DNA of 64,000 nucleotides from Hexactinellida sp. DTS-2022 (Eukaryota; Porifera; Hexactinellida). The translations under genes and the position numbers were made by a program. Under the pieces are notes generated by a model. It did not search any database. It had not been told where the DNA came from and saw nothing but the letters and a program-made list of their open reading frames with translations. Each line of letters opens with the position of its first letter. Position 1 is the stretch's first letter. The DNA is taken from positions 2,728,001 through 2,792,000 of the forward strand of contig JAPNXP010000002.1 of NCBI GenBank assembly GCA_028753945.1, read 5' to 3'. Shown in pieces: positions 1,450-60,551 of this stretch.

Positions 1450-1775
1450 CTAATTATGCATATTTCTCAAAATATCCCACACTTCAACAGGTCTTAACGG
1501 CCATGGGTAGAGGGAGACCCCCCCTAGGTATTTCTTTGTCAGGGTCCACTTTGGTTTTAAACTAATTATGCATATTTATATAAATATATACCTACACTTC
1601 AACATCCGGCATTGCGAGACTGTCGACTTAGTATCTTGTTTGTCGTTGTCCACTTTGGTTTTTCTCTAACTATGCTTATTTCTCTAATATAGACCCACAC
1701 TTCAACATGCCCTAACTGCCAGGGGGAGGCGGATGCCGTCCACTTAAGGGGTGAGTCTGGTAGGGTCACTTCTAC
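1450..1775. repeat. Three tandem 110-bp units
   Basis: Three imperfect head-to-tail copies start near 1450, 1562 and 1667. Each begins ctaa(t/c)tatgc(a/t)tatt and contains cacacttcaaca and tgtcrgggtccactttggt-like blocks. They are related to 98-210. An open frame on the minus strand here (1599-1820) only reflects the repeat. Confidence 0.65.
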
Positions 1776-2234
1776 CAAAACAACTGAACTTAAGACTTGA
1801 AATTTAGTGAGTGTTTTCAAACTGCAGAGAAACAGCCAAAAGCGCTATGAAATATAACTGAACTACTCAGTAAAATTCAACTTTTTAAAGCATAGTATAC
1901 TATGATAATGTTATTAAAAATAATATTTGGTCTTTAAAAAAAATTAAAAAGAAAAATTATACAAAAATATTTTCGAGCACAAATAATGCTGTTTTTGAAT
2001 ATTTAGAATTTTTGAGAAAACTAATCAAAAATTTGTAATAATATATTTTAAACTTTATCACTCTTTATGGTGCAAGAAAACTTGAAAATTTTAAGCGGAA
2101 ATAATTGGAAAAAAGTCGTATAAGTACCAAAAATGTTGTCTGTCCGGATATAATTTCAAATATTATTAAGTTTTATTCATCACTATTGCATTTCTTTAAT
2201 GTTGTTAACAGCTCAAATTAGCTGTTAACAGTTT
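1776..2234. other. AT-rich stretch, nothing recognised
   Basis: There are long A and T runs, with no ORF, inverted repeat or match elsewhere in the window that I could see. Confidence 0.4.
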
Positions 2235-3521
2235 AAACTTGCCAATATTCATTGAAAACATATATAGCGTTGCTATGTAATATATTAAGCCATAAATATA
2301 TCTAGTAGAAAAACATGATAACTTGAAACACTTTGTTTTTACTTCATAACTCGTCAAATAAATAGGCATTCAACTTGCGTATACGAGAAAATCACCAATA
2401 TTATCTAAATTTATATTATTTATCAGGAATTCAAAAATTAGGTCAATTTTTCATTGGAATTTCCCTATTTTTGAGAAATGTGGCTATACAACTTTGCCAA
2501 ATTTGAAAAAAGTATGGAAACGCTCTGAACGTTATTTATATATATATATTAATTTAATATTAACTACATCTCCCGAAATTTCAAGTTGATACGATAAATA
2601 ATCACGGAGTACTCTAGCTTTTTCCACAGCCGGTATTAGAAAATATTTATGTGGAGAAGAGGGTTTAGAAGGACACAATAGTGGCACAAACCTTCAATAC
2701 TTCTTACAGATAATGGTTTGATGATAATTGAAGCAGTTCATATTCCTCGAAAACGATTACTGATAGTGTTAGCAAGTTACAGCTAAGCTCTTGCACAACT
2801 CTGATTTTCATGTTCGATGGTTTGTGATGGTCACATGACACCTCCATATATGGGCATGGGCTTCTTAATATGGTGACTATTAGGAAAACACTCCAATTTG
2901 TTATTCCAATGATATATGCATGATATATTGATGTGAATAATTGATTAGAGCTAAGCTCTGCTTTCTCTAGTTTATTTGATACAAAATTGCTGAATCATCA
3001 AAATGTGGCACATATCCATGCCCATATATGGTCATTTGAAAAAACGGGGCGTCTAAGCGTCACAAAATGAATTAGGGACGCAAAGGAAGTCGTGTATTGC
3101 GAGCCTTTTTCACTAGTACATTTAATTCTAGGTGTACGGGAGTCTGAAAAATGTATTCTGAGGGGGTGTGTTAGATATTGGACCCCAAGGATAGATAATG
3201 TGCCCTAACGAATTTTCTCTTTATATATAATTTTTTTATCAATTTTGGTGTTTTTACCAAAGAATATCTAATGGGCCAGGTATATTCAAGGAAAATCACC
3301 AAAAATCATGTCAGTTACAGCAAACAATCCATCTGAAAGTGCTGAACCACTGAAAAAGTACACTCAGCACCCAAAATATCGTACTTATAGAGGTGAAATT
3401 AGTCGAGATATTGTACGTTTGACCTTTGCATATCTTTGGGGGCTTAATCAAGCGTCTATAGACGAAATTTAATTTTTTTGTCATTTTGTAGCCATTTGCA
3501 AAATAGTACTCGTAGGTAGCG
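2235..3521. mobile_element. TTAA-associated repeat, copy 1 (pair of 53369-54646)
   Basis: About 1.29 kb is repeated in direct orientation at 53369-54646 with a few per cent divergence. The right end reads gtagcg directly before TTAA (3522-3525), as in the other copy and in 61587-62986. I could not find a left terminus, so the 5' side may be truncated. It carries two copies of the CCATATATGG (2844-2853, 3022-3031) and AGAGCTAAGCTCT (2947-2959) module. The right third keeps a short frame matching the 63-codon ORF of the other copy. Confidence 0.7.
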
Positions 3522-3574
3522 TTAAATTGAAGTTAATTATCTCATATAATAATAAAAAATCGAAAAATAATCGA

Positions 3575-4694
3575 TAATCGATAAAAATTCGTCAATAATT
3601 ATCCAATCAATGAAGACATTGGGCAATCTAATCGATAATCCAATCGATACAAAATTCAGCAATCGATAACACTGTACAACACACAAAAAAATACGAGATA
3701 GCGACAATGTATTTTATGGCAAGTTTGATATGCTGATCACATATCAGAAGTCAGTTTGGGCCTATCACATTACATTTTTCAGAAGAAAAAAATATTCGAA
3801 TTTTCTTAATTATTTAAAAAAAATCGACATTTTGCCCGAAATTGAGAAATGTAAGTCGATCTAAAATTACCAAATGCGAAAAAGGAGGTGTTTGATTTGT
3901 TTACGGTAAATTTATACGTTCATATATTAATACTTGATTATAACAAAAAAATCTTTCTAGTAAGTAATATGCATATTTGGGGTGTTGAAAAGTACTGGGC
4001 TCATGCTCCTAATTAAATGGGCGTATGGATTACTAGACTTGGTTACAGGGATGTTGTTATGGAATTAGCTTATATTAACGACATTATTATTTGCCTGGTT
4101 TAATTACTAGGACATTGCAATGGAATTATTGGGTTGTTACGGAGACGAAAAAGTACAACTAACATTCGCCTAATGTAATTCACTAAGCAACATCGTTTAA
4201 GAAAATAATAGATTACATACATGCCAAGCTGAGCTACGGGCAAAGCGGGACGGGAAGTTGTATTTATCGGGATATTTCGATATTTAACGGGACATAGCAT
4301 ATTAGTATTATACCTCACTGTCAAAAAGCGCGACAGTTGGCAAGTATCAGATTAGTATTTTTTTGCTTTCTGTTAATTTCTTTTGAGATTTTATTGCATG
4401 TCTACACGTGATTGTACGAATTCTGCAGATTCCTTCCATTATTCGAAGTTATGACTTGATGCTCGCAAAAAAATATTAGTTTAAATGTCCATATTTTTGC
4501 AATATTTCAGGAATTTGTAATGTTAATTTTCAAAAAAATGTGATGTGATGGAACAAAAGGGCCATCAGATCTGTGATTAGCATAACAATGTTGCTATAAA
4601 ACGCTTAATTGATACAACGTATTTTCTAAAACAGAAAATTTGTTGTACAGTGTAATCGATAAGTTCTAGCGATTTGATTGGATTGGCAACCCTG
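3575..4694. mobile_element. ATCGAT-rich MITE remnant, split by a nested element
   Basis: The right end (4666-4694) reads as the inverse of CAGGGTTGCCAATCCAATCA, like the termini of the intact-looking relative at 55632-56037. The left flank (3575-3669) is dense in ATCGAT. The left terminus itself is not recognisable. The element at 3670-4652 sits between the two ATCGAT blocks. Confidence 0.5.
3670..4652. mobile_element. Nested element with CACTGTACAACA termini
   Basis: CACTGTACAACA at 3670-3681 is mirrored by TGTTGTACAGTG at 4641-4652, and both ends are flanked by ATCGATAA-type sequence. The 983-bp interior has no convincing coding sequence. TA-type target use is possible but not certain. Confidence 0.55.
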
Positions 4695-4899
4695 CTAATA
4701 TGAACTAATTTGTATAGGCTCAAATCGACTTCAAAGCGACGCATTTCAAAAAAAAAAAGCTACAATGTATACAAATCGCCGTATTTCAGTTAATATTTCC
4801 TCATAGAACCATTTGGTTCAAATTACACATAAATTGCTGAATTAAGAAATGTAGCATAGCAAGAGACAAGCACTTTGTTATATATGACAGCTAATATGT

Positions 4900-5232
4900 C
4901 AAAATAAATATATCATTATTAAATATATAATTAGATAACTAAATAATGAATTATAATCAATAAGTAGCAATGAGAATATATTAATTCTGATATCAAATTT
5001 AAATTCCACATGGTTAAATTTCACTAACGGCATAATTTCAAATCAATCGAAATTTTCTAGTTTAATACGGCGATATTTCCATTGTGCCACTTATGCTACA
5101 AGTGGCACGTGGCAGAAAAAATTGTCCCACTTCATGGATACTTGCTATATTGAATAGAAATCGCAATATTTTGTAATGTATATCTATATTCAGATATTTA
5201 TTGTCATTTCAGAGTCGTTTAGATAGCCGTTA
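4900..5232. mobile_element. Diverged relic of the CACTAACCGG MITE family
   Basis: Similar in order and wording to the middle and right parts of 49330-49906 and 60552-61115. Shared blocks include attccacatggttaa, tgtgccacttatgc, aagtggcacgtggcagaaa and gtttagatagccgtt. The outer ends are lost. Confidence 0.65.
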
Positions 5233-5236
5233 ATAA

Positions 5237-5441
5237 GTTAACTCTTTTGGGACCATCTAAGCTTTGTATTAACACTATCTCTTCCATTATTTACAATTCT
5301 TTCATTATCAAACTCTTTACTAATCCATCTATTGAAATATAGCCGTTCAATCCTAAACTATCAATTATATTTTGAACGCCAGCCACGCCTAAGTTGAAAC
5401 GAATGATACCTAAACTACAACCTAATTTCATCAAACTCAAT
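5237..5441 (-). pseudogene. Mutator/Kolobok-type transposase fragment
   Basis: Read on the minus strand, this matches about 200 bp of the transposase at 25440-25640. The shared peptide runs through SLGIIRFN, VAGVQNIIDSLGLNGYIS and IDGLVK, the region just after the catalytic Glu block, followed by the same accatctaagctttg-type stretch. It is cut at its 5' side next to the palindrome at 5445-5472. It is a relic of the same family, not a gene. Known from the family: this segment follows the NES..W motif. Inferred: a dead copy truncated by later rearrangement. Confidence 0.85.
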
Positions 5442-5444
5442 CAG

Positions 5445-5472
5445 TGGCGGCGCTAGCTAGCCGCCACTGGTG
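5445..5472. repeat. 28-bp near-perfect palindrome with hAT-like ends
   Basis: The sequence starts CAGTGGCGGC and ends GCCGCCACTG around a GCTAGC core. Both halves look like hAT termini (compare CAGTGGCGGATCC at 20788), as if two ends abut with no interior. It lies at the broken 5' side of the transposase fragment at 5237-5441. Confidence 0.5.
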
Positions 5473-6213
5473 GGGCACAGGTGGGGCACTTACATTAATG
5501 AGGTGGGCAAACTTAAATTCAGTTGGGGCCAGTGCTGCCAAGTCTCCGTAAATTTACTTAGACTACGTGAATATACCCCTATCTACGTGTCTACGTATGA
5601 AGACCTATTTCTACGTATTTCTAGCGAAATATATTTAAGACTTCTTGATTAACATATAATTGCGTTTTGTTTTACTAGTGAACCACAATATCATTATTTA
5701 TGTTTAATAATATGTTAAATAATATCATCGTGATGAATTATTCCAATCGCAGAATACTCTTAATTCAAAACAGTTGCACAATTAAAAATTATTTAAATTA
5801 AATCTTACTTTGATAGTTTGACACATACTATTAGTGAGTATATCTTATTGTCTACAAGCGAAAAAGCGTCCATATATCTACCTTTATAAATCATTATTCA
5901 TACAAAATAGTTAGTTTATATGATTTGAAAAAGCAAATTAATGGTGTCCTGGTAATCAATATTTTCATTACTATGGGTAACTTCTATTAAGTATACATTT
6001 AGCACTCCTACTCCAGTGGTCTAACATTTAAATTAGAATTTAGAAATATTGTAATTTCATTGTCAAAGTAATTCTTTGTCTGAAGATTGAATATTTTCAA
6101 TATAGAATATTAGCGTATATCCTATATAAAATAACACAATCCATATGTATTTAGAAAATATATTATACTTGTTCTAGAATGTTCAAATTCACAACATTCC
6201 TTCTACTATGTCT
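5473..6213. other. No feature recognised
   Basis: AT-rich, with a short gtggggcac repetition at the left. The small open frame 5470-5652 shows no family features. Confidence 0.35.
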
Positions 6214-20991: not shown

Positions 20992-22901
20992 TCAATCTAA
21001 GTGTTTGTTTCCACTTATAAACATCAGCTCCTCGAATCGTTTGTCAGATAGCCTACATCTGTCCGGTCGAAATTTTTTCCCACCGATTGAAAACAAACGC
21101 TCAACTGGAGCAGATGATGCTGGGATGGCGCTGTAATGGATAGCCATAGTGGTGAGCTCAGGCATGCTGTATTGGTTCTGTTTCCAATACTGAAGTGGAT
21201 CTGAGTCCTCTGGGATGTCTGGTTGAGCAATGTAATTTTCAATTTGCTTTGAGGCTGGAGTTATATTCTTTTCATATTGTTTATCAGGGGCTTCACTCAT
21301 GATTCTAAAAAGCTTGCATCTTTTATTTGGAGGTGATACCGAATCAGGTTCTGTGGTAACTTGACTTTCATCAACTTGGAATTGCGCATTCAATTCAGAA
21401 ACTCTCTTAGATAGCAGCTCTTTTATATGGTTGGCCTCACTATTATAGCACCAGTCAAGTTTCCATCTCGGATCTAATGCAGCAGCCAGTTGAAAAAATT
21501 CTAGTTCATCATATTTAACCAATCGTCTCTCAATAGATGATATTAGTGTAGTAACCATCTTTGACTTATATGTTTTGGACAATTCTTTCAGCTCAGCTCT
21601 GAGTCCACGGATGCAAGGAATCACTAAACTGGATGTTACGAACTTCTGAGCTTGACATTGCATAGTAGCTAGCTCAAATGGCGTGAGAACCGCTGTTATC
21701 TCACTAATTACTTTCATTTCATATTTTGTTGACTTAGCTGAATAATTAAGTTGCTCAATTATGGCGGGATCTGCATCCAAAAGTGATTTGAGCATCTTAT
21801 TCGTACTGTTCCATCTTGTGTCATTTTTTGCATGAATTTATGACCACCTTCAAAGAGAGAAGTAGCTTGGCAGGAGTGACGAACATAGCTAACCATCTTA
21901 GATACTTTGTTGATTATTGACGATACAGCTCCAATTTGTTTGATTCCATCATGTACTACTAACTGTAGAGTGTGTATGAAAACATGAGATATGCTTAGGC
22001 AGATAGTCCAACACATCTTGTGAATCGACAGACATGTAGAAATCCTCATCTTCATCGTCATTTTCATCACTTTCACTGTCTCCGCTGTCCGCTTCCACTC
22101 CTGGAGACTTGACAAAAGCCTTGTGCATATTAGCAGCATTGTCTGTGATGATATATCCAACCTTACCATCTAAATTGAACTGTTCGATGATGTCCTGGTA
22201 ATTGGATAACACATTCTCTGCAGTATGTGATCCCTCAAAACGTCTACACGCTAGCATGACACTTTGCAGTTTAAAATCTTCTGTGAAGTGTCCAGTGATA
22301 CCAATGTAGGCACGCATAGTCCTATTTGTCCATATATCTACTGTGAGGCAGATTGTTTTGATTTTTGAAAGTCGTTTACAGATGTTGATGTGAAGATTTG
22401 AAGTTTTTGCGGGGAGGATCTTGGTACTCAAATATTTACGAGAAGGAATGTTGTAAGCAGGCTGAGCTTTCTTCAATAGCGCACAAAAATCAGGGTTTTC
22501 TACCTCGTAGGTGGCTTCAAAGAATTACAGATATATTTAACTAAGTAGTCTGTCATTTCAATTTGGTTGGGATTTGTTGCCTTCCATAAAACTGGAGTTC
22601 CACTAACAGCCATAAAGTTAGTTATAGGCCCTTGTCTAGATAAAGTTGAATTACTAGTTGAGCTATGTTCTATGTGTATTTCTGGGTGATGTCGCTAAGA
22701 GAAAGACAGATTGGGATAAATTGTATAACCAAAATTCTTAAAGTGTATTTTTCAAAATCTTACCTTCATGTGCGTGTGAAAGTTGGATGATGCTGCATAG
22801 GAACCTGAGACTGGTTTCTTACAGTGCTTGCAATTAATTTTGAACTGACCGGTAATATTACCAGCAGGTTCATCGAATTGATTGAATATCGGAGGAGTCA
22901 T
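20992..22901 (-). pseudogene. hAT transposase, ZBED type (frameshifted)
   Basis: A DDE transposase of the hAT superfamily that would excise and insert elements with 8-bp duplications. Proposed start at 22901. Exon 1 gives a BED zinc finger (CKHCKKP, then FHTHMKRHH across the intron). After the 69-bp intron (22695-22763) come the catalytic segment LTVDIWTNR, the second acidic block GYIITDNAANMHK, the HTLQLVVHDG block, and a C-terminal dimerisation domain (HYSAIPASSAPVERLFSIGG, ending SGNKHLD at 20992). The frame moves between two registers at about 22535, 21985 and 21800, so at least three frameshifts inactivate it. Motif order and total length fit a ZBED/hAT-Ac transposase. Strong identification; clearly non-functional as read. 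Confidence 0.93.
22695..22763 (-). other. 69-bp intron of the hAT transposase
   Basis: On the minus strand the donor is ATGAAG|GTAAGA and the acceptor is TTTCTCTTAG|CGACAT. Joining 22764 to 22694 keeps the frame and completes the zinc-binding histidines of the BED finger (HTHMK then RHH). This supports a real spliceosomal intron and a eukaryotic source. Confidence 0.85.
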
Positions 22902-23164
22902 TTCACAAGATTGAGTCGGCAGATAGCCTAGTACTGAATGCTCAATATATATACGTATACTCCATTATAACAAAGAGAAGCCATTTGTTATTGTAAAATC
23001 AACAGCTTACTAGAAGTTTGGGCAAAAATGTCAATCCAAAGCCATAACTGGTGTTCTAATAATATTATATTTATAACGAACACTAGAAACGTGTAATCGA
23101 AAAATATTTAGTCTATATTAAGGACAAATTATTTCATTTAAAATTGCCAATATGGATTAGTGCT

Positions 23165-23340
23165 TTTCAATTACAATTACAATTACAATTATAGGGATTT
23201 GTGTTTTCAATTACAATTACAATTACAATTATAGGGATTTGTGTTTTTCAATTACAATTACAATTACAATTATAGCGATTTGTGTTTTTCAATTACAATT
23301 ACAATTACAATTATGTCAAACACGTAATTAATTGTAATTG
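23165..23340. repeat. Sub-terminal array of the hAT: aattacaattacaatt blocks
   Basis: Four copies of a roughly 50-bp unit (ttcaattacaattacaatt, then ataggg/cgatttgtgttt) lie just inside the 23373 end. A related, less regular array lies inside the other end (20625-20785). Sub-terminal repeats are the usual hAT transposase binding sites; that role is inferred here. Confidence 0.75.
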
Positions 23341-23446: not shown

Positions 23447-25711
23447 CTTGGAAAGGATCTTAGTTCCAGTTCTGACGAGGATATTGTAGTGCCGAAAGGC
23501 TTTGATTTTGGAGAAACATCGGAAGGTAAATATGTTTTTTGCAGCACCCATAACTCCCACACTAAAAATGGAAAAAGGTAGAGTTCTTGTTAGCTCTAAA
23601 AAGCGTCCAAATAAATTCCGTGGACACATAAAGCGCGAAATGGTGGCCTTAGCTCCTGAGTACTCTCCCCTTCAAACGGCTAGCATCCAAACAAGTGTAA
23701 CGGAGTCACTTGATGTTCTTGAGCGATCCGCTAAGGTCCCCAGAGTTTCTGAGGAGACCCAAAACGAGATTATACCATTTTGGATAGCCAAGAACATCAA
23801 AAAACTACGTTACAGAAGGATCAGCCTAAGCTTGCAACTGCCCAAAGAAAAATCACTCGGGGCATCGTTGATAACCTTCCTGTCAGGGAAATGGAAATTT
23901 TTATGGTCTGTAAATCTAGGGGTGAAAAACAAAATTTATGTAGGGTCGTGGGCAATGGAATTATGGATGTAGGAATTTTAGAGAGTGCTTAAGCGGATAT
24001 TTATGTTTGTAAGTTTTGTGGTAAAGGTCGGCTATCTTTCTATCGAAAGTCGTATAATCATGGAATGGCCATGCATTATTATATTGTCTGTGATCAATGT
24101 TTTACAGCTGTCCCTCTCTATACTCTCCCTCAGAATAGTGCCCATTCCGACCCAGATAATACTACAAAGTTTGGCCATAACATTTTACAATTTTTAGGAG
24201 GTAGATTAGCTGGCATTGGAAAATCAGGACTCTTTTACATAAATACTTTCATTGGTTTACCATCAACGTTATCTAATAGGGAATTTTACAAATCTCAGGA
24301 TTATTTATCTAAGGTTTCCACGGATGTAGCACAATCAAGCTGAATGCGGGCAGCCTTAGAGCTGAGAAAAATACACAACACGGACGATTTAGAATTTTTA
24401 GAGGTTACAGTTTCATATGACTGTGCATATCAATGAAGAGTGGGCAAATTGGGGCGTGGATTTCTAGATACTGCGTTGCTTGTGCTATATCCGTGGAAAC
24501 TGGGAAAGTATGAAATTATGAAATTGCATGTATTAGTTGCAAAATGTGTATTGAGAAGCAGCAAGCACTTAGGGAGAAACAATTAGATTTAGCTGAATAT
24601 ATGATATGGAAAGAATTGCATGAATCTAGTTGCCAGGTTAAAGAATATGGCAAGTATCGTTCAGTTTCGCTAGCCCCAGTTATTTTTCGAAAGTCTATTG
24701 AACAGAAATTAATTTACTCCACTGTGATTGCGGATGGTGATGATAAAAGTGTAAATATATTAGCTGAAAATAATATTTATGGAGAATTTTATATAACGAT
24801 AAGGCGGGAGGAATGTCTGAGTCATGTTCAGGAGCGCAAACGAATACATCTAGTTGAAAAACAAAAAGAGTTTATTGCTTCACAAAAAACATTATTGCAA
24901 CACGAATTGGGACAATGTAAAACTGAAGATCATAAAAAAACTGTTACGGATTTATATCGGCCATCTACGCATAGGGATTTGAAAAAAGGAAGAGATAATT
25001 GGGATGATAGTGAAGAATTAGTAGATATATCTAATGAAATAAATCTTTTACCTGATAATATAATTGATACAATAACATCTCTAAATGGTTTTGTTATAAA
25101 AAGTAGTGGTGATCTAATGGAATTACGTGAAGCATTGTTGGGTTTTGTTTATCATATACTTGCTAATAATAATAATTGTCATGAAATGCATAAATATTGT
25201 GAGAAGGGTGCTGATTCATTTTGCATGTATCAGAAAGCAGTAGTTGCAGGAGATACAATTCCAAAACATCCCAAGTACATCAGTTTAGTCAGTAGGGATG
25301 GTGTTTTAGTGATTTTAGAACCTTACTTTGCAGTGTCATTTTTGGAAAAAGGTTTCAGGAGGTAATACCTCTAATCTAAATGAGAACCTTCATGGGATGA
25401 TTAGGAGTTGTATCAGCAAAACCAAGTCAATGGAATTGTGTTTGATGAAATTCTGTTGCAGTTTAGGTATCATTCGTTTCAACGGAGGGGTGGCTGGCGT
25501 TCAAAATATAATCGATAGTTTAGGATTGAACGGCTATATTTCAATAGATGGATTAGTAAAAGAGTTTGATAATTAAAGAATTGTAAATAGTGTAAGAGAT
25601 ATATATAATACAAAGCGTAGATGGTCCCTAAAACAGTTAAAGCGCTCCCGGAAACGTGGAGCTACTTATAAGAGCGGGGCCTATTCCCAAATAACATGAG
25701 TGCCACGGGAT

Positions 25712-27672: not shown

Positions 27673-27798
27673 ATAAGGCCAACTACTCTAAAGGCCAACT
27701 ACTCTAAAGGCCAACTACTCAAAAGGCCAACTACTCTAAAGGCCAACTACTCTAAAGGCCAACTACTCTAAAAGGCCAACTACTCTAAAAGGCCAACT
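27673..27798. repeat. 15/16-bp minisatellite (aggccaactactctaa)
   Basis: About eight copies of aaggccaactactcta, alternating 15 and 16 bp, preceded by looser ones (27620-27670). It ends directly downstream of the coiled-coil ORF at 27822-28352. Confidence 0.9.
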
Positions 27799-29165: not shown

Positions 29166-30091
29166 GTCTCCATAAAGAGAATCAAATTAATAGGGTTAGC
29201 TTTGGGGCTAGCAATTTGGGGGGAATAGGTTACAATTTCATTCAAATTTCCATAATATTCCTGAATACTGCTCTAACATTTTAGTGGCTTTTAGCACTTG
29301 CTCAGTGTTAGGAAAATATCGCCGCCTCCCCCGATATGCCGTTACAGCCGCCTGTTTTTAACTCTCTTCAGTCCATTTCTTATGTCCCACACAATTATTT
29401 AGGTTCTTTATTATATTGTAAAATTAAGCAGGTTTCACCTGTTGATACATTGTGTTATATCTATCTATCTATTTTAAAAGCACTTGTTGTCTGTTTGTTT
29501 CTTTGTCCAGAATTAATTGGAAAGACCACGGCCCCATAATACTGAAAATTGGGGTCTAAAATTACAGGGGTAATTTTGTACTGCGACAATGATCTATTGG
29601 TTTTTGAAGAGAAATATTCACATTTAACTTTATAGCCGAACGAGAACTAATTGAACCAAAAAAACTAGTTGCACTAACTTTAGAATTGGTTTACAATGAG
29701 ACATATGATAGAGATACCTCAAGAGTATGTAAAGAAATAATTGAAAGGGCTCATTCAATAAAGTTGTCACTAAATTTCCATTCCGAAATCAGCCCATTTG
29801 TTAGACATCTTAGAAATAGGTTCAACTAAGTATTCAGAGCTAAAGCGGATCTTGAAAGGGGAAAATGTTAAATTACCACCATACAAAGTAGTCTCGCTAT
29901 TTCGTAGAGAAATCTCCTTAGCAGATGAGATGACGATAGTTCAAAACCCTGAAGGCTTCTCAGTTGGAATAGCTATATCTTATCATTCAATTCTTTCTCT
30001 CACCATTCAACTTACCCTTGAAAATTTAGATCCCATTTCAGACACACAATTTCCTCTTAATGTAACAATATCAGATGGACTGGATGGTTAA

Positions 30092-32135
30092 GGGTAATCT
30101 GTATTGATATTCGGGCGTTCACGGTGAATCTCAGAATTGCATAATTTACTACTAGGAATACTCTAGATGAGATAGAGATTGACTTCTATGATTTTTTTTT
30201 TCTTAATTTTCAATCAAGATGGTGTTTTTTAATAAAATAAGACGTCGACTTCCTTATATGGGCATGACATTATTTCAAAAATTGTTGAATCTTTTTGAAT
30301 TTTTGAACATATTATTATGAGACTATTTCCTCTGAGTAATAATTTTTATTTTATTTATTTTTGTAGAAGAAACGATGCTAAAGGGCATTTTTTCAAAATA
30401 ATCATAAAACGCAGTCGTGCACTAGACTATCGTTATAAAATGTTAGAAGAAAAAATTTTCAATTCTAGTTCAAGGGTCTGAGGATGTATCATGTATTACC
30501 CCAGAGAAATTTTTTGACTTTCTGATAATTATTTTTGGTTTTATAAGCATTCTAAGGCTGCGGCCCACGAATTTTTCCGAATTTCAACATCAAAAGAGGT
30601 GATAAAATTCTAGACTGCCATATATTGTTCCCAAAATTAAAAAATTCGGAATCTACATGTCAAAATATACAGGTTCACGTCAAAAAGTTCAGGAATATGT
30701 CAAAAATTAGGAAATTAGGGGCATAAAAGAATATGAAGGGTATGCAAGTGCCCGGTGATCATATATTACTGTGGGAAATTGGACAGCAGAATAATTCTGT
30801 TATTCTTCATAAAAATGCGCCAGCTTCTTATCTATGCGTAGCATTTGTTTTCAACACTTCTACAATAATATATCATGAGTTATGACCAATTTATGACTAT
30901 GGTTTTGTCTGTTTTGTCATATTTTCACACCTCAAGGCCCTCAAATATACAATAATGTATTATATAAAACACCAATTTGGTAATACAAATAGGGAAATAG
31001 CATTTGCGCACAAAATGAGACGTTACACAACACGATCCAATCATTATTCGATAAGTTATGGACTTTTGGGCCACAGAAGGGGGCAAAAAATCTGACATTT
31101 CACACCTGTTGATATTTCAGAAACGCTTTGAGATAAAATGATCATAGGCATTAGAAAATACTGTAAATACCTGACTTTCTATACGTTTATAATACATTTT
31201 AGGTCTCTAGGTGTCACACTTTTTAACTTGACCATATATGGTAATTTGATGTGCCCAATTTTGATGACGAAGCAAATTTTGTAACTCTTGATCTCTGGGC
31301 AGCAGAGACTAGCTCTAAAATTCTAGTCACATCATGATACTATTTCTTACTCATTGGATAAACTTTTGGGATTATATTATAATTCGAATGATGTGTTCTG
31401 ATTTCAAATGCCCAAATATGGTGGTGTCAAAGTGGCAATATGTTAAAAAGCTGACAAAAATCCAACTTCTGATCCAAATGAGATAGAGCTTAGCTCTAAA
31501 TTGCTAAAAATAGTCTAATTCAATTTCAAATGACATTATCTATTTTATGCAGTTTAGGAACTCCTTTTCTTCGCACTTTCATATTCTGGACTCAGCCACT
31601 TCGACACAAATTAATTAAATGCTAATTATGAAGGTGTAAAAAAAGACCATTTGGGCATATGGATGTAAAAAAGAGAATTTTTATTCTAGAAAGTCAAACT
31701 TTTTTTTAAAATGCTCAGTATATGTAGGCGCATGTTTTAAAAGCGGGCAGTTTTGGCAATATAATACAAAAAAATTGAATTAGTATACTTTTAATGAAAA
31801 ATAGTGGAGTTTTTTTGACCAATTTCACAAAAATGACAATAACATAGAGTAGATTAAAGAAAAAGCATATTTCGGTTCGATTTAAAACATTGAGTATTGA
31901 CTCAGGTATATTTTATAATTGACATGTTTCGCGCTAAAAACTAACATAAAAATTTTTTTTAAATATTTGGCTAGTATGGATTAGGCCTATATTGACATTG
32001 TCTAGTTCATAACTAAGGATATATACATAGTAGAACTCTAATATTTTCAGGGATATCTTAGATATATTAGTACTATCCAAAAACGCAATAAAAACATTAG
32101 GTCGTCGGGTGTCAAAATATCAATACAGAGCACCC
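30092..32135. mobile_element. TTAA element (2,044 bp) inside the RAG1-like gene
   Basis: The left end GGGTAATCTGTATTGATATT and the inverse right end GGGTGCTCTGTATTGATATT share all but two bases. TTAA lies at 30088-30091 and 32136-32139. Removing the element and one TTAA joins the coding halves in the same frame at the catalytic DG motif. It carries two CCATATATGG-type modules (31232-31320 and 31413-31497, inverted relative to each other). No transposase is visible. Confidence 0.92.
31232..31497. promoter_or_regulatory. Paired CCATATATGG/AGAGCTTAGCTCT modules
   Basis: First module: CCATATATGG 31232-31241, ttttgatgacgaagc near 31260, gagactagctct near 31308. Second module: cccaaatatggtggtgtc near 31411, then AGAGCTTAGCTCT 31485-31497. 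This is the same arrangement as at 2.8-3.0, 18.2, 39.9-40.15, 53.9-54.1 and 62.3-62.5 kb. Function unknown. Confidence 0.55.
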
Positions 32136-33428
32136 TTAAGGCACTCACTGCATCTACAATCAAATCAATTCAAATCCAGATTTATCGACTAAAAGTTTTA
32201 TCTTCTTTGGATTAAAGTCCTAACCATCACAGATACCATTCATAACCAAATATTCTTTAATAATTTTCCCGATTCGACTTTCTCTTTTAAACCAGTTGCT
32301 TTAATAGCTCTTAAAGAAGATTATGGCAATGTCAAATTTATAATGGAGACACTGATAAATCCTGAAACTGACCATATCATGGAGGATGGGTTTAATCTAG
32401 GTTGCGGACATATTAATGTTAAAATAATTCGTTCCCTTTTTGATACTAAGATGGCGGGTCTATTGGATGGTGCAGGAGGGGCTTCTTGTCATCTATGTAC
32501 TGCGACTGAGTCCCAAATTAAAAGCTTAGAATGGGTTGAATCTGGATTCCCCATTAACAGATTCGTCAGAGATGCTCATGAAATTTTCAGTGAGGTTAAT
32601 GAAGAAGAATATTTGAAATTACCTTCTCATCAACGTGTTGGTGTAACTCACCAACCAACATCCAACATCAACATCATAGCAGCTTCTCCCCTACATGCAT
32701 ATCTTTGTGTTTTCAAGTGGTTTATGCTCCTAATATACTATCTGGATGCAGGTCGCACACAATGGTCGCCATCAAACTCTAAGGTCCAATCATTGATGAG
32801 ACGCATTAGATCAATCATTGAAGAAAGATGTAATATCATCGTTGACATTCCTTCTAGCCATGTAGGTACTTCGACTACAGGGAATGTTGCTCGTGACTGT
32901 TTCATGAACAAAAGAGAGTTCCTAAAATGGGATACTTGTTCAATTGATCCAATTCATAAACCAACACTAGAAATAATTCAAAGCAATCTATCAGTAATCT
33001 TGAGATTGGTCAACAGCGGCAATCAGTTCAACAGTGTTAAATTAGAGGAATTGTGCAAAGGAACATATCAATTCATCATTAGTGAGTTTGCATGGGCAAG
33101 CATAACACCTTCCTTGCATAAATTGCTTTCCCATTCTTTCCAAATATTTCATTCTTACAATAGTGGCTACGTTTAAAAAATATTTCAGAAGAGTGTTTAG
33201 AAGCAGGAAAACCTAGCTCGTAAGACGTCATTTACCGACAATGTCCGAGATATATTGGTCCGTATATTGTGTAATAGCGACCCTATACTTGTAGAAAATC
33301 GTTTCAGACCAACAAAAGTATCTAAAGACCCTGCAAACTGCGAACAAGACACGTTATACAATAACACACTAATGGAAGTTATGAATAAATGTTTAGTCAA
33401 TTCGTACTATTTAGTTGCTGTGTATTAG

Positions 33429-33823
33429 CCTCCTAGGCATATAAATTTTGTTCATGTTTCCATAAAATATTATCCTATGGTAACGCAGCTATTACAATGT
33501 CATACACAAGGGCGTAGCCACGAGATAGAGAATGGTAGGGTCGGGTCTATCTTTATGAGTCATCAAAGTTAGGGCTTTTGGAAGGATTTTCATTATGTTT
33601 GATAAAAATATTAATTCTCTGTAAATTATTGGTACAGCCAGGGCTCCAGCAAACCTACCGAAGTATGCGCACATTATACATGATGTATTTTAATAATTAA
33701 CATAAAATATAGAGTGATAAATATTAAATTATTAATGACCCATATTACAAATTATAAAATTAATGATTGATGATGTCATTTTCACACATTTCTAGTTGAG
33801 TTAGAAAAATATATATATAATTT
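33429..33823. other. 3' flank of the RAG1-like relic, nothing firm
   Basis: A caagggcgtagccacgaga block at 33508 resembles the hAT end CAGGGGCGTAGCCAGTGG at 58174, but no partner end was seen. Confidence 0.35.
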
Positions 33824-34240
33824 TTGATTCTACTTGGTCGATTTACTACCTGTACTAATGCAACATTTAATTGTACCATTAACGAAGCATTATATGTTAA
33901 TGCTTTCTGTGACTATTATGAAAATTCAAGTATATTCTTGCCACCATCAATAAAACCATTGTTTAATTGTATCCAACTGGTCCCATGTAGTACTGCAGAA
34001 TGTGAACGTGGGTTCAGCCATATGAATATCATATTGGAGGATCGGCGTTCTCGGCTGCTTGTATCACACATATCTGCTCTTCTATTTATTAAACTTAATG
34101 GCCCTCCACTTTATATATGGGATCCAAGTGATTATGCTAGATGTTGGCTAATAAATCACCGGAGTGAAACAGATACTCATATATGGGGTAGAAATAGTCA
34201 GACAGTTAAGAAAACCCAGTTTGGAAGTGTATTCGAATAA
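33824..34240 (+). pseudogene. hAT transposase C-terminal fragment (KIAA1586/ZNF862-like group)
   Basis: The 139-codon frame contains LFNCIQLVPCSTAECERGFS, then HMNIILEDRRSRL, ISALLFIKLNGPPL and WDPSDYARCWL. This is the dimerisation domain of hAT transposases, in the form seen in KIAA1586-like and ZNF862-like domesticated proteins (P.S.AECERGFS.MN, then a GPP.. tail). The catalytic Asp region and zinc finger are missing, so it is a 3' fragment. It lies 400 bp downstream of the RAG1-like relic and is a different family. It is open to its stop, so either young or captured. No terminal repeats assigned. Confidence 0.8.
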
Positions 34241-35843: not shown

Positions 35844-37570
35844 GGGTCTGACTGAATGGTGGAAAATGGTGGAAAATGGTGGAATTTCCGAATTTTCGTC
35901 GAAATGACTGAATGGTGGAAAGTGGTGGAATTTCTAAAAATCGACTGAAAGGTGGAAAATGGTGGAAAACGACTCAATGGTGGAAAATGGTGGAAAACGC
36001 CAGAATGGTGGAAAATGGTGGAAAAACGGGGGCTGACTGAATAGTGGAATCTAGTGGAATTTGACTGAATAGTGAAATCGAGTGGAATTTGATTAAATTG
36101 TTAAACACTACGTTATGCTATAAGCTACGTGTGTATCATACTACGTTAATTTTCGCCCATGTAAAATTGTTTGCAATGATTGAACTAGTGTTGTGCATGA
36201 AGTGACACAATAGGATTTATTAGTTAAGCTTTGTAACCATGTTATTTAGACACATCTTATTAACATTATTTATCAACAATTCCTTATCAAATCCAGTTGG
36301 TATTCATTGGGCAGTTTCCATAGAGATGATTAGTAAGAATACTAATATAGTATCATATTGTCCCACTTCATGCACAACACTAGTTCAATCATTGCAAACA
36401 ATTTTACATGGGCGAAAATTAAGGTTAAATTACGGCAGATTCACCCAAAAAAACACATGAATTTAGTTTTGAAGGTGGGAGTTTAAATTTCACATATATG
36501 ATGGAAGACATTATAGCTATATCGAAACTGAAAACGAAATCTAATTATCTTCTATAAATTCGAAATTATTGGGCTTGCAGTATTATGCTATTACAAAAGT
36601 ACCATAGGGGGATTTTTTCAGACTCCACCTGATAAGTGTGTGGTTTGCAAGATCATTATTTGCTAAAGACCTGTACTGTGTGATCTATCAGATAGATCAT
36701 CGTTATGGGCGGTTGGTTGGCGGTTTAGAATTTTGATAAGATCTAAATACAAAATATTGCGACCTTTTGAAACCAAAAAATGAAAAAAAAGGTCATCTTT
36801 TTATGCGAAATTTGATTAAATCATTGATAAAAAAAATTCCAAGTCATAATTCAAAAATGTAAACCGTCTACCTACTCCTTACGCTTATAATCTTTAAATA
36901 TTGATTCTGATAACAAACATTGATGGCCGCATTGCCAAATTACCGCATAATATCTTCCACCACTTTTGGAAATCGCCCTATGGGAGATTTGTATTAGCCA
37001 AATTTTGAAACCGACAAAAAATAAAAAGTATAATAGATAGGGACATTTTCTTTTTGGTTTATTGATTTGTAACGTATAGGTATATATTTCTCACAATTAC
37101 AGATTAATACAAGAACTTTCATTCACATGGGGTAATTTAACCTTAACGTATTATGATACACACGTAGCTTATAGCATATACGTAGTGTTTAACAATTTAA
37201 TCAAATTCCACTCGATTCCACTATTCAGTCAAATTCCACTAGATTCCACTAGATTCCACTATTCAGTCAGCCCCCGTTTTTCCACCATTTTCCACCATTC
37301 AGGCGTTTTCCACCATTCAGTAATTCTCCACCATTTTCCACCATTCAGTCGTTTTCCACCATTTTCCACCATTTTCCACCATTTTCCACCTTTCAGTCGA
37401 TTCTTAGAAATTCCACCACTTTCCACCATTCAGTCATTTCGACGAAAATTCAGAAATTCCACCATTTTCCACCATTTTCCACCATTCAGTCAAGTAGTTT
37501 TCCACCATTTTCCACCACTCTCGGATGTTTGCCACCATTTTCCACCATTTTCCACCATTCAGTCAGACCC
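35844..37570. mobile_element. Foldback element with 9-bp TSD, tandem-repeat arms
   Basis: GGGTCTGACTGAATGGTGGA at the left is mirrored at the right (37551-37570). The 9-bp acaaatctt lies at 35835-35843 and 37571-37579. The arms consist of tandem aatggtggaa units (35850-36030; inverse at 37270-37560), then tagtggaat(c/t)tag units. Next comes a unique arm (36100-36210) mirrored at 36350-36422 plus 37143-37200. A 9-bp duplication plus long repetitive arms fits Mutator-type foldback elements. A TTAA MITE sits in the right arm. The open frames at 35774-35977 and 37185-37589 are translations of the repeats. Confidence 0.88.
36423..37142. mobile_element. TTAA MITE, 720-bp family
   Basis: The ends are GGTTAAATTACGGCAGATTC and the inverse of GGTTAAATTACCCCATGTGA, with TTAA at 36419-36422 and 37143-37146. 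It interrupts one arm of the foldback element exactly at a TTAA, so it is the younger insertion. Confidence 0.93.
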
Positions 37571-45738: not shown

Positions 45739-48043
45739 TCAAGAATCACAGTTGCAAAAATAATGTGCAGGCTTTTGCCGTTTAGTCTTTATCCCTTCGC
45801 AGATACAGTTGTACCACTGTTCACATTGATGACAGCAAATCCACAGTTCGTATTTCCGGAAAGTAGGAATTGGACTTTCCCTCAGATTACAAGTGCCGCA
45901 CAAGGTGTCACTTTCCTCGCCACTTGATGCAACCTCTAACCCAAACTTTCCCGACGAATTTACCGCCTTAACACGCCGCTTTCTTGAGGTCTCTGCTAAT
46001 CGTGTTTGGGTGAGAATTTGCCTCCTGCGTCGTTTATGTGTCTCTCTTATCCTGAGAATTCTCGCCTGGTTTCTCCGGCGATCACGTCTTGAAAAGTAAA
46101 GTAGTGTTTCGTGAATCGCCGTTAGTCCCAGTACCTTCATGAGAACAGAGTAGGATAATGATCCATCATTGAATGAAAGGACCGAGAGAGCCGTACACGC
46201 AATAAGTGACTTCTGTCCCAATCTCTTTGTTTTCGGTGCGTTATGCCACAACATATTATGAATGCTTTCGTTAGCATTTTGAGTCTTCCCTAGAGTGATG
46301 GTGCGACAAAAGGATAAAGAGGCGAAAATATCAAAGATTGCGGTGGTCCGATCAAACTCAGCAGACTTCAGAAATGGTGTTCTGGGTACTGGGAAGTTAT
46401 GGAGCTGTCCTGCGGATGTTTCGCTACCAATTTTCTGAAGTAGCACCAGGAAGTGGAACCGTCCCGGACAATTGTCGTGCTTCTCATCAATGTGGAGGAG
46501 AAGGATCTGCAGAGCTTCATGAATTTCCTGAGCACCTTCACCCCGGTGCTGCACTATTACTAGCGCATACAAGTGCGCGATTCGATCGGATTTGGCTTCA
46601 GGTAGTCCCTTCGTATGTTTTGTCTTTTTAAGAAAGGTGTTTCTTGACCCGCTTTTTGACATGCCCAATGCATTCTTCTTTTCGGTATCTAGCAATCCAT
46701 TATTGGGATTCGATTTCAACAAATTCTTGAATGAAGAAGAATCTCCATCACCTATATAAGTGTCCTAGACCAAACTACGAGTAGGAATGGACCTCTTCCA
46801 AAGGTCGACAGCGGCCGTGCTCTCCATTGATTGAGAGGAACCTGAAAAGTTAGCGATACAATGGAGTTTGTGACTATTGGTGTATTCCTAAAAATCTTCT
46901 GGGTGATTCTCCTTTCTTTCTTCAGGCCATTTCGAGCAAGGATAGCAGACTCTATCATAGAGCTGGTAATCGAGGACTTTGCCCTGTTCCGAATCAATGA
47001 CTGCCGCAAATCCTTGATTGGAAAAAATGTCCTCTACGATGCCAAGAAGCATCGAAACTAACAGTACAACTACGGAGGTCTTCTGGTGGAATATTATTTG
47101 ATTGGACCGAGGAATGGACGTTCTCCCCTGATATTTTCATAGACTTCGAAACGACGCGGGCTGTAGATTGGACGAAGTTTTTGAGGTAACGCCTCGATAT
47201 TGTTGAGGCCGGAACTTTCAGGTCCAGGAGACTGCACGTAAGTCGAAAGTCCTCCCAACTTTGAGACGTCGTGTGAACTGCTAACAAGGAACGTAATTCA
47301 GGTCGCTTTGCCCTCGTACACGAATTTATTTGTTGTTCATACAACTATCTGCAGGAATTCCAATAGGCAGAGAAGCTGGAAATTCCGCTACAACATTGTG
47401 ACAGTAGTCTCACTATATTAGTAGCAATTTCTGAAGTTCGTCTTCCAAAGGTTGCTCATAATGTCGTATCCTTCCTTTGCAGGAATTATTTACGCAGAAC
47501 AGAAGCGAAAATACCTAAGTTAGAATGGCCAGGTTGACTATTTGAGTTACCGCTTGCAGGTTTTAGATCTTGGGTGTATTCTATTCCTTCGATGCAAAGT
47601 TTGATATTGCAGACCTTTGTTTCCCTTGCAAAACGAATATCCCTGTATAGGGACGTAGTTGGGCATTTGACTTTCACAGAGTCTCTCCCAGTCTCAGGAC
47701 TTTTTGAGGTGACATTGAAAAAAGGAGTTACACCTTTCTTGAATTGGGCCGATCGACGTATCTTTACATATTTCTTCCTTTTGGTTGAGGTGTCGAAAAG
47801 AGTTGGTGTTCCGAGGTTTGTGAAGACAACCCGACGAAAGAGAAAGAAGCCCCCAATGACGTCGCTGGACTAGCAGGAGTTGTTGGAGTGGACGGACTTG
47901 TTTCAGATCCACTAGACGAGTCACTAGAATTGAAGGGACTTGGGTTGGAGAGGAATGGTAGGTCAGCTGACCTAAAGATCTCTATTGTGTCGGAATCTCT
48001 TCCTCCGATGAACTATCATATTCAGTTTCTTCTCTTGATGCCA
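45739..48043 (-). pseudogene. Mutator/Kolobok-type DDE transposase 1 (degenerate)
   Basis: Minus strand, proposed start at 48043 (MASREETEYDSSSEEE). A Ser/Pro-rich N-terminal region follows, then TVSFDASWHRRGHF (first catalytic Asp, about 47050), NQGFAAVID and GKVLDYQLYD. Next are IGDGDSSSFKNL (second Asp, about 46750), LGKTQNANESIHNMLWH (Glu, about 46250) and SVLSFNDGSL. It ends in a PHD-like cluster (CGTC, WICCHQCEQWYNC, YFCNC at 45739). The last 327 codons are uninterrupted. Upstream there are frameshifts (near 47025 and in the N-terminal part) and stops, including TAG at 46765-46767. No terminal repeats found. Flanked at a distance by the two inverted hAT copies. Confidence 0.9.
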
Positions 48044-60058: not shown

Positions 60059-60262
60059 GTAGGCATTAGTTCGACTCTATTTTAGCAATGTAGGCATTAG
60101 TTCGACCCTATTTTATCAATGTAGGTATTAGTTAGACCCTATTTTAGCTATGTAGGCATTAGTTCGACTCTATTTTAGCTATGTAGGCATTAGTTCGACC
60201 CTAATTTAGCTATGAGGCATTAGTTCGACTCTATTTAAGCTATGTAGGCATTAATTCGACAC
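60059..60262. repeat. 31-bp minisatellite (about 7 copies)
   Basis: Head-to-tail copies of gtaggcattagttcgacyct plus attttagcwat, with few changes. Confidence 0.93.
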
Positions 60263-60551
60263 ATTTTATTGCCGTATCCTATAATGTTTCCATATTCTTT
60301 TTCCGAGGAGCCATTTAAGGATGCTTAGGTTGAAATTTTAGGTGTTTTAATCACAAAATTGAAATGCGAGTTTACACTGTGAAATTAATTTAATGTATCA
60401 TAAAATTATGTGAGAAGTGAAATTTTTTGAAAAAATATTCTGCAAAGTCTTCAAAACGTACATTTGGTGACGTCATTATTGATGATGTAGCTTTTTATTA
60501 TCTCAATTGACATTCCTTGGTTATATATGTACTATATTGTGCACCTATATA

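Follow-up and report, generated by a model that had tools for sequence, protein, structure and literature searches.

Which kind of element left the broken, RAG1-like coding sequence in a 64,000-nt stretch of Hexactinellida sp. DTS-2022 DNA (contig JAPNXP010000002.1, positions 2,728,001–2,792,000), and where does this element stand between the Transib transposases and vertebrate RAG1? An earlier note on this stretch, which we call the window and whose own positions serve as coordinates throughout, had described the remains of a DDE transposase of the Transib/RAG1 type in which no second catalytic Asp was visible, and had inferred a lineage nearer to RAG1-like proteins than to the Transibs of insects. 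Our analysis indicates that window positions 29620–33884 (+ strand, as are all coding parts of the copy given below) are almost certainly a dead copy of a multi-copy cut-and-paste DNA transposon of the Transib superfamily, which has lost its ends. The whole relic, nested insert included, was delimited by DNA alignment to its nearest copies at the genomic loci L009, L011, and L012 (L-numbers denote loci in the host genome), with aligned pieces 89–95% identical. The relic itself is ordinary, and with its ends and frames lost and a nested repeat inside, it does nothing. Its occurrence outside vertebrates, which the earlier note pointed out, is not exceptional either: published Transibs come from bacteria, plants, and fungi as well as from many invertebrates (PMC9435367, PMC7204232).

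The sequence blocks from which the element had been recognized are present where they had been seen, in the order found in RAG1 and Transib, and the matches of the corresponding open reading frame (ORF) in the Protein Data Bank (PDB) and in the genome exceed chance. The longest open stretch (32193–33173, 327 amino acids; defined as an ORF and by PDB and genome searches) covers an RNase-H-like core and the zinc-binding Cys/His residues, and includes the blocks FKPVALIAL and TGNVARDCF as well as LHAYLCVF, which starts at 32691. Searched against 177,635 distinct PDB sequences, it matches the Transib transposase of Helicoverpa zea (PDB entry 6pqn) with an E-value of 1.2e-10. Pfam searches with four pieces of the window copy gave no match at E ≤ 1, whereas the RAG1 profile PF12940 scored 36.8, 26.9, 25.2, 24.4, and 16.7 bits in five better-preserved relatives, three of them above the cut-off of 25. 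Upstream, tblastn identified a coding remnant (29626–29748, 63% identity) that corresponds to residues 133–173 of the L010 protein, the last part of a region resembling the nonamer-binding domain (NBD) of RAG1. Coding sequence continues in another frame at 29774–30088 (tblastn, ORF) as far as the first catalytic Asp (ISDGLDG, 30068–30088), and it resumes right after the nested repeat with a remnant beginning GTHCIYNQ (32140–32217; tblastn, 69% identity to L010). Within the longest open stretch, alignments placed a zinc cysteine pair, CHLC (ZnC2, 32487–32498), against CYLC of Transib and CTLC of RAG1, and a zinc histidine pair, LHKLLSH (ZnH2, 33114–33134), against FHKTLAH of RAG1. The copy contains several frame shifts, and its main frame stops at 33174. 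Past this stop, the aligned SEECLEA block (33185–33205) lies in a shifted frame, and a further frame holds an ORF-defined C-terminal remnant (LARKTSF to SDP and beyond, 33201–33425), in which a pattern search found no zinc-knuckle motif. Measured against L011, a fuller copy, the relic lacks about 875 bp on its 5′ side and 42 bp on its 3′ side, and CACWRTG termini were not recovered in the window copy, as both ends are gone.

All three residues of the catalytic triad are still readable, in different frames. In mouse RAG1, 108 residues separate the Asp of CDGMGD from that of GYDEK, and the Glu of GNESGNK lies a further 254 residues on; these measured spacings equal those of the RAG1 triad D600/D708/E962. 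RAG1 GYDEK aligns with MIDGK in Transib, MVDEK in lancelet RAG1L, [FIL]DxKM in the sponge family, and SLFDTKM in the window copy. The first catalytic Asp is thus encoded at 30083–30085 (alignment, translation), the second at 32442–32444 within SLFDTKM (alignments), and the Glu at 33200–33202 within SEECLEA. The second Asp had been expected in LHAYLCVF. This block indeed holds no Asp, but the RAG1 spacing rejects it as the site and places the residue in the GYDEK-equivalent block, so the reported absence was a misreading that came from looking in the wrong place. Together with the profile search described below, the alignments of a DDE triad in its RAG1/Transib context bear out the assignment to the Transib superfamily.

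Beside the first catalytic Asp, the copy is interrupted by a repeat of about 2.05 kb (30088–32139, no strand assigned; delimited by end comparison) with a TTAA duplication and 20-bp inverted ends, GGGTNNTCTGTATTGATATT. Including the TTAA, its arms are 24 nt long and 92% complementary. A 609-bp part recurs with 98–100% identity at all 40 scored places in the genome (258 candidates), and judged by these comparisons the repeat is high-copy and young. An intron across 30091–32140 was ruled out, because the TTAA and inverted ends are present and the stretch is repeated in this way across the genome.

The host genome has 18 contigs totalling 112 Mb, with 34% GC in the sampled parts, and contains the better copies that the earlier note had suggested looking for. 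A search with the window ORF yielded at least 122 matches (the best 122 scored of 658 candidates), 13 of which sit in open frames of 700–757 amino acids without any stop. The better-preserved relatives encode one transposase of about 710 amino acids; besides this protein, 20 loci contained nothing longer than 250 amino acids, except for an unrelated-looking 300-amino-acid frame in L021. In 4 of 20 loci (L017, L022, L025, and L028), a repeat that starts near AAAATCCAAAATTGCAGCC lies just downstream of the transposase frame, in tandem in L022. According to PMC4411706, autonomous Transibs typically have one or a few copies, and the copy number in this genome is therefore high. Scans with patterns derived from the family returned 232 pattern stretches in the genome_contigs set and 67 in the viral_contigs set, none of which was confirmed, with the limit that distant Transibs could escape such patterns.

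We examined 41 copies, comprising 40 genomic loci and the window copy. The heptamer CACAGTG was found at both ends in 27 of them, with the ends 2.9–4.2 kb apart, and an exact 5-bp target duplication flanks 23 of these 27 delimited copies; the earlier note had suggested looking for CACWRTG termini and for such duplications. Three near-identical pairs, L023/L024 (99.1%), L013/L014 (99.4%), and L017/L021 (99.0%), occupy separate loci and are flanked by duplications that differ, a sign of recent movement. When subfamilies are compared, the proportion of nonsynonymous differences (pN, 0.21–0.33) is well below the saturated synonymous proportion (pS, 0.76–0.84) in all three pairs compared, indicating that the frame was under selection. 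As read from the sequences, the family is thus characterized by many dispersed copies, triad letters, defined ends, 5-bp duplications, and the asymmetric spacers described below.

Several points weigh against this reading. For 14 of the 41 copies, including the one in the window, no acceptable pair of ends was found, and exact duplications are absent from L014, L019, L041, and L044. L029–L031 have one duplication in common and may represent a single insertion that was multiplied. Selection of the end pairs used a score of end similarity and duplication, the very features for which they were then counted, and the counts therefore lean towards success. Finally, the ratio of nonsynonymous to synonymous substitution rates (dN/dS) is 0.38–0.74 in three near-identical pairs and undefined in one, so selection within the recent copies is not shown.

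The two ends of the element differ in a regular manner. In each, the CACAGTG heptamer is followed by a spacer and then by a conserved box, GAAATAGG[CT]A. When the box was learned iteratively, the 5′ spacer was 11–13 bp long in 22 of 27 copies and the 3′ spacer 21–22 bp in 21 of 27, and the offset between them was +8 to +10 in 20 of 27. Direct comparison of the two ends gave the same offset in 19 of 27 copies, and at least one of the two methods gave it in 24. Exceptions are L020 (+14), L026, which has no resolved offset, and L045 (−9), in which the arrangement is reversed relative to the gene. In L045 (copy at 1725–5502 in gene orientation), the long-spacer end lies upstream of the gene, opposite to the others, which may reflect an inversion or a nested copy. 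The short/long offset is kept across subfamilies whose proteins are approximately 43–69% identical.

The same pattern was recovered independently of the transposase genes. The motif CACAGTG-N4-32-GAAATAGG occurs 441 times in the genome, compared with 2 occurrences of the backward pattern, and 431 of the 441 ends fall into two spacer modes (11–13 bp, 160 ends; 20–23 bp, 271 ends; other lengths, 10 ends). Among the first 100 ends listed, the peaks are at 12 (33 ends), 21 (30 ends), and 22 bp (27 ends). On contigs C1–C5, inward-facing neighbors no more than 5 kb apart form 18 + 11 pairs, all 29 of which join a short-spacer and a long-spacer end. Many of these pairs are spaced by about 1.1–1.2 kb and therefore look like non-autonomous derivatives. 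The chance figure for exclusively mixed pairs is 2.5e-10, a value that assumes an independence which copies of one family lack.

How the family relates to Transib, RAG1L, and RAG1 depends on the feature considered. A profile of 12 family proteins searched against the PDB ranked Helicoverpa Transib first (1.6e-42), followed by lancelet RAG1L (1.1e-16) and RAG1 (2.1e-14 or weaker). Identities over 348 shared columns in 11 family proteins also put Helicoverpa Transib first (24.9–29.4%, compared with 21.2–24.7% for lancelet RAG1L and 19.2–24.1% for mouse RAG1). In an unrooted tree with long branches flagged by the program, RAG1 and RAG1L split from the family and Helicoverpa Transib with a support of 100/99; with three outside sequences this tree cannot be rooted, and it does not tell which of the two, Transib or the RAG clade, is the family's nearer relative by descent. 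The approximately unbiased (AU) test rejected two arrangements, one that joins only lancelet RAG1L to the family (p 9.6e-7) and one that joins it to Helicoverpa Transib (p 1.2e-6); neither rejection favors Transib over the whole RAG clade, or the reverse.

Domain features, in turn, point to the RAG1 side. An N-terminal profile of 11 copies had the isolated NBD of RAG1 (PDB entry 3gna) as its top match (E 3.4e-4); RAG1 filled the top 16 of the 20 rows, with the next row at 0.13, and lancelet RAG1L gave no match at E ≤ 10. The distance from the CxxC to the LH motif is 67–68 residues in all 37 measurable copies of the 41, similar to RAG1 (67) and RAG1L (63), and an alpha11–alpha12 zinc-domain stretch is accordingly present as judged by length only. 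In Helicoverpa Transib, this distance is 32, with six unseen residues counted as X. The CCGHC tail pattern (CTT1) was found in 11 of 41 copies; among the 10 copies with frames above 700 amino acids, 6 have the pattern, L027 has a near match, and L013, L016, and L025 lack it. The NBD homologue, the full-length CxxC-to-LH stretch, and the asymmetric ends put the family, in its domain features, on the RAG1 side of insect Transib. The earlier claim of a closer relationship to RAG1, which had been based on the KPxxLI and zinc blocks, fails in that form, as Transib ranks first in sequence similarity.

This combination of features most resembles the Subgroup I Transibs of ctenophores, Hydra, and others (Tao et al. 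2022, PMC9435367), to which we liken the family by their published description. They likewise have an NBD equivalent, the alpha11–alpha12 stretch, and asymmetric ends with a heptamer and a second conserved element, and probably share with the family a single transposase gene and the CCGHC tail seen in some of its copies. The sponge family differs from that description in a CCGHC tail that is partly missing or altered and in spacings to GAAATAGG of 12 and 21–22 bp. NBD, alpha11–alpha12 region, CTT1, and asymmetric ends are all listed as Subgroup I features, the NBD being common to Subgroup II too, and loss of the alpha11–alpha12 region is given as a mark of Subgroup II (PMC9435367).

It is unlikely that the family is instead an unremarkable Transib of the insect type (Subgroup II). 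Helicoverpa Transib is the best sequence match and falls among the family rows in the unrooted tree, although on a long branch, but all 37 measurable copies have a CxxC-to-LH distance of 67–68, against 32 in the insect protein. Even less probable, and in our view only a slight chance, is descent from a RAGL transposon, with RAG1L and RAG2L genes, that has lost RAG2L. The NBD homologue, the RAG1-length CxxC-to-LH stretch, and the zinc-knuckle tail in part of the family would fit such an origin. However, the transposase did not group with RAG1L and RAG1, which stand apart from the family and insect Transib in the unrooted tree, and lancelet RAG1L finds RAG1 (2.8e-68 or weaker) and not Transib at E ≤ 0.001, whereas the family finds Transib first. 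The 33 matches of the RAG1 profile PF12940 in the whole genome are weak; 15 of them pass the cut-off, the strongest scores 32.4 bits, and they all fall between profile positions 474 and 633. The earlier note saw no RAG2-like neighbor, and the RAG2 profile PF03089 had no match in the whole genome, a search whose 14-genome control was likewise silent. A domesticated host gene, which the long open frames under past selection might suggest, can practically be dismissed: more than 100 copies are dispersed over the genome, terminal repeats and target duplications are present, some copies are recent and near-identical, and the window copy is broken.

Read as a Transib-superfamily transposon, the sponge family can be compared with the known systems. 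Helicoverpa zea Transib shares the DDE core, CAC ends, and 5-bp duplications. Its solved chain starts after the NBD-like region, its zinc-domain stretch is shorter, and its ends are described as symmetric (PMC8289069), in contrast to the asymmetric ends found here. ProtoRAG and other RAGL elements (lancelet RAG1L, PDB entry 6b40; Aureococcus AanRAGL) have a DDE core, a zinc-domain stretch, and asymmetric ends like the sponge family, but carry RAG2L, and their RAG1L groups with vertebrate RAG1. The ProtoRAG spacers are 27 and 31 bp (PMC8289069), and the ends of AanRAGL have 13-bp and 10-bp elements with 4 or 13 bp between them (PMC9435367). Vertebrate RAG1 and its 12/23 signals share with the sponge family the heptamer CACAGTG, the NBD homologue, and the combination of one short (12 bp) and one long spacer. 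The sponge family differs in a long spacer of 21–22 instead of 23 bp, in a box GAAATAGG instead of ACAAAAACC, in being a mobile element, and in that RAG2 was undetected, as it was in the silent control. Asymmetric Transib ends as such are already published: all Subgroup I Transibs are reported to have them (PMC9435367), and PMC8355894 describes 12/23-like spacers in Drosophila Transib5 and Anopheles Transibs and says that few Transibs are known to have ends of this 12/23-like kind. The sponge family adds a further such case.

The transposase of the better-preserved relatives combines an NBD-like domain at the N terminus with an RNase-H core that carries the D-D-E triad and with a zinc domain whose stretch has RAG1 length; some copies add a zinc-knuckle tail. 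By analogy with Transib and RAG1, a transposase dimer most likely pairs one short-spacer with one long-spacer end, its NBD reading the GAAATAGG box, and makes its cuts next to the CACAGTG heptamer through a nick and a hairpin; the excised element would then insert into its target with a 5-bp duplication. A more far-reaching and tentative possibility, to which we give less than even weight, is that this is a RAG2-less Transib lineage in which a true RAG1-type NBD reads GAAATAGG across 12 or 21–22 bp and the transposase works only on short plus long pairs. A recently active transposon would then follow a 12/23-like rule that is older than RAG2 and independent of it. The two sharp spacer modes with 431 of 441 ends, the 29 mixed pairs out of 29, and the offset kept between subfamilies would be compatible with this. 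Weighing against it, copies inherit their end pair, so that mixed pairs are expected without any rule. The vertebrate 12/23 preference has been argued to need RAG2 (PMC8355894).

Other mobile elements were found in and around the relic. Where the Transib homology ends, a C-terminal remnant of a hAT transposase begins (33885–34240, +; PF05699 E 5.9e-5, ORF 33821–34240). At 33505–33660, the 3′ non-coding part of the window copy contains a hAT-like end sequence (GGGCGTAGCCA); it is also present in L011 and L012 and, being common to the three copies, entered before they spread. A further hAT transposase remnant lies at 20995–22524 (−; PF05699 E 3e-16, DUF659 weak), and Mutator-like transposase remnants lie at 24514–25362 (+) and 45742–46764 (−), with PF20700 E-values of 8.1e-6 and 1.5e-4, just below the cut-off. 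The window also contains tandem repeats at 60059–60268 (31 bp), 23150–23314 (41 bp), 27675–27798 (16 bp), and 37352–37559 (93 bp), and searches of it for patterned RNAs and tRNAs found nothing. Elsewhere in the genome, SRCR domains (153 matches) form large tandem clusters on contigs C5, C6, C13, C14, and C15, a weak hint of an invertebrate host such as a sponge. Searches of the genome for innexin and insect-cuticle families had no hits, with equally silent controls.

Taken together, the sponge family represents a living or recently active relative of RAG1 with RAG2 undetected, a heptamer identical to that of the recombination signal sequences (RSS), and two fixed spacers of 12 and 21–22 bp. 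It may therefore help to find out if 12/23-like pairing arose before RAG2, and its hundreds of ends would offer a direct way to ask if short–long pairing stems from RAG1's own nonamer-binding domain.

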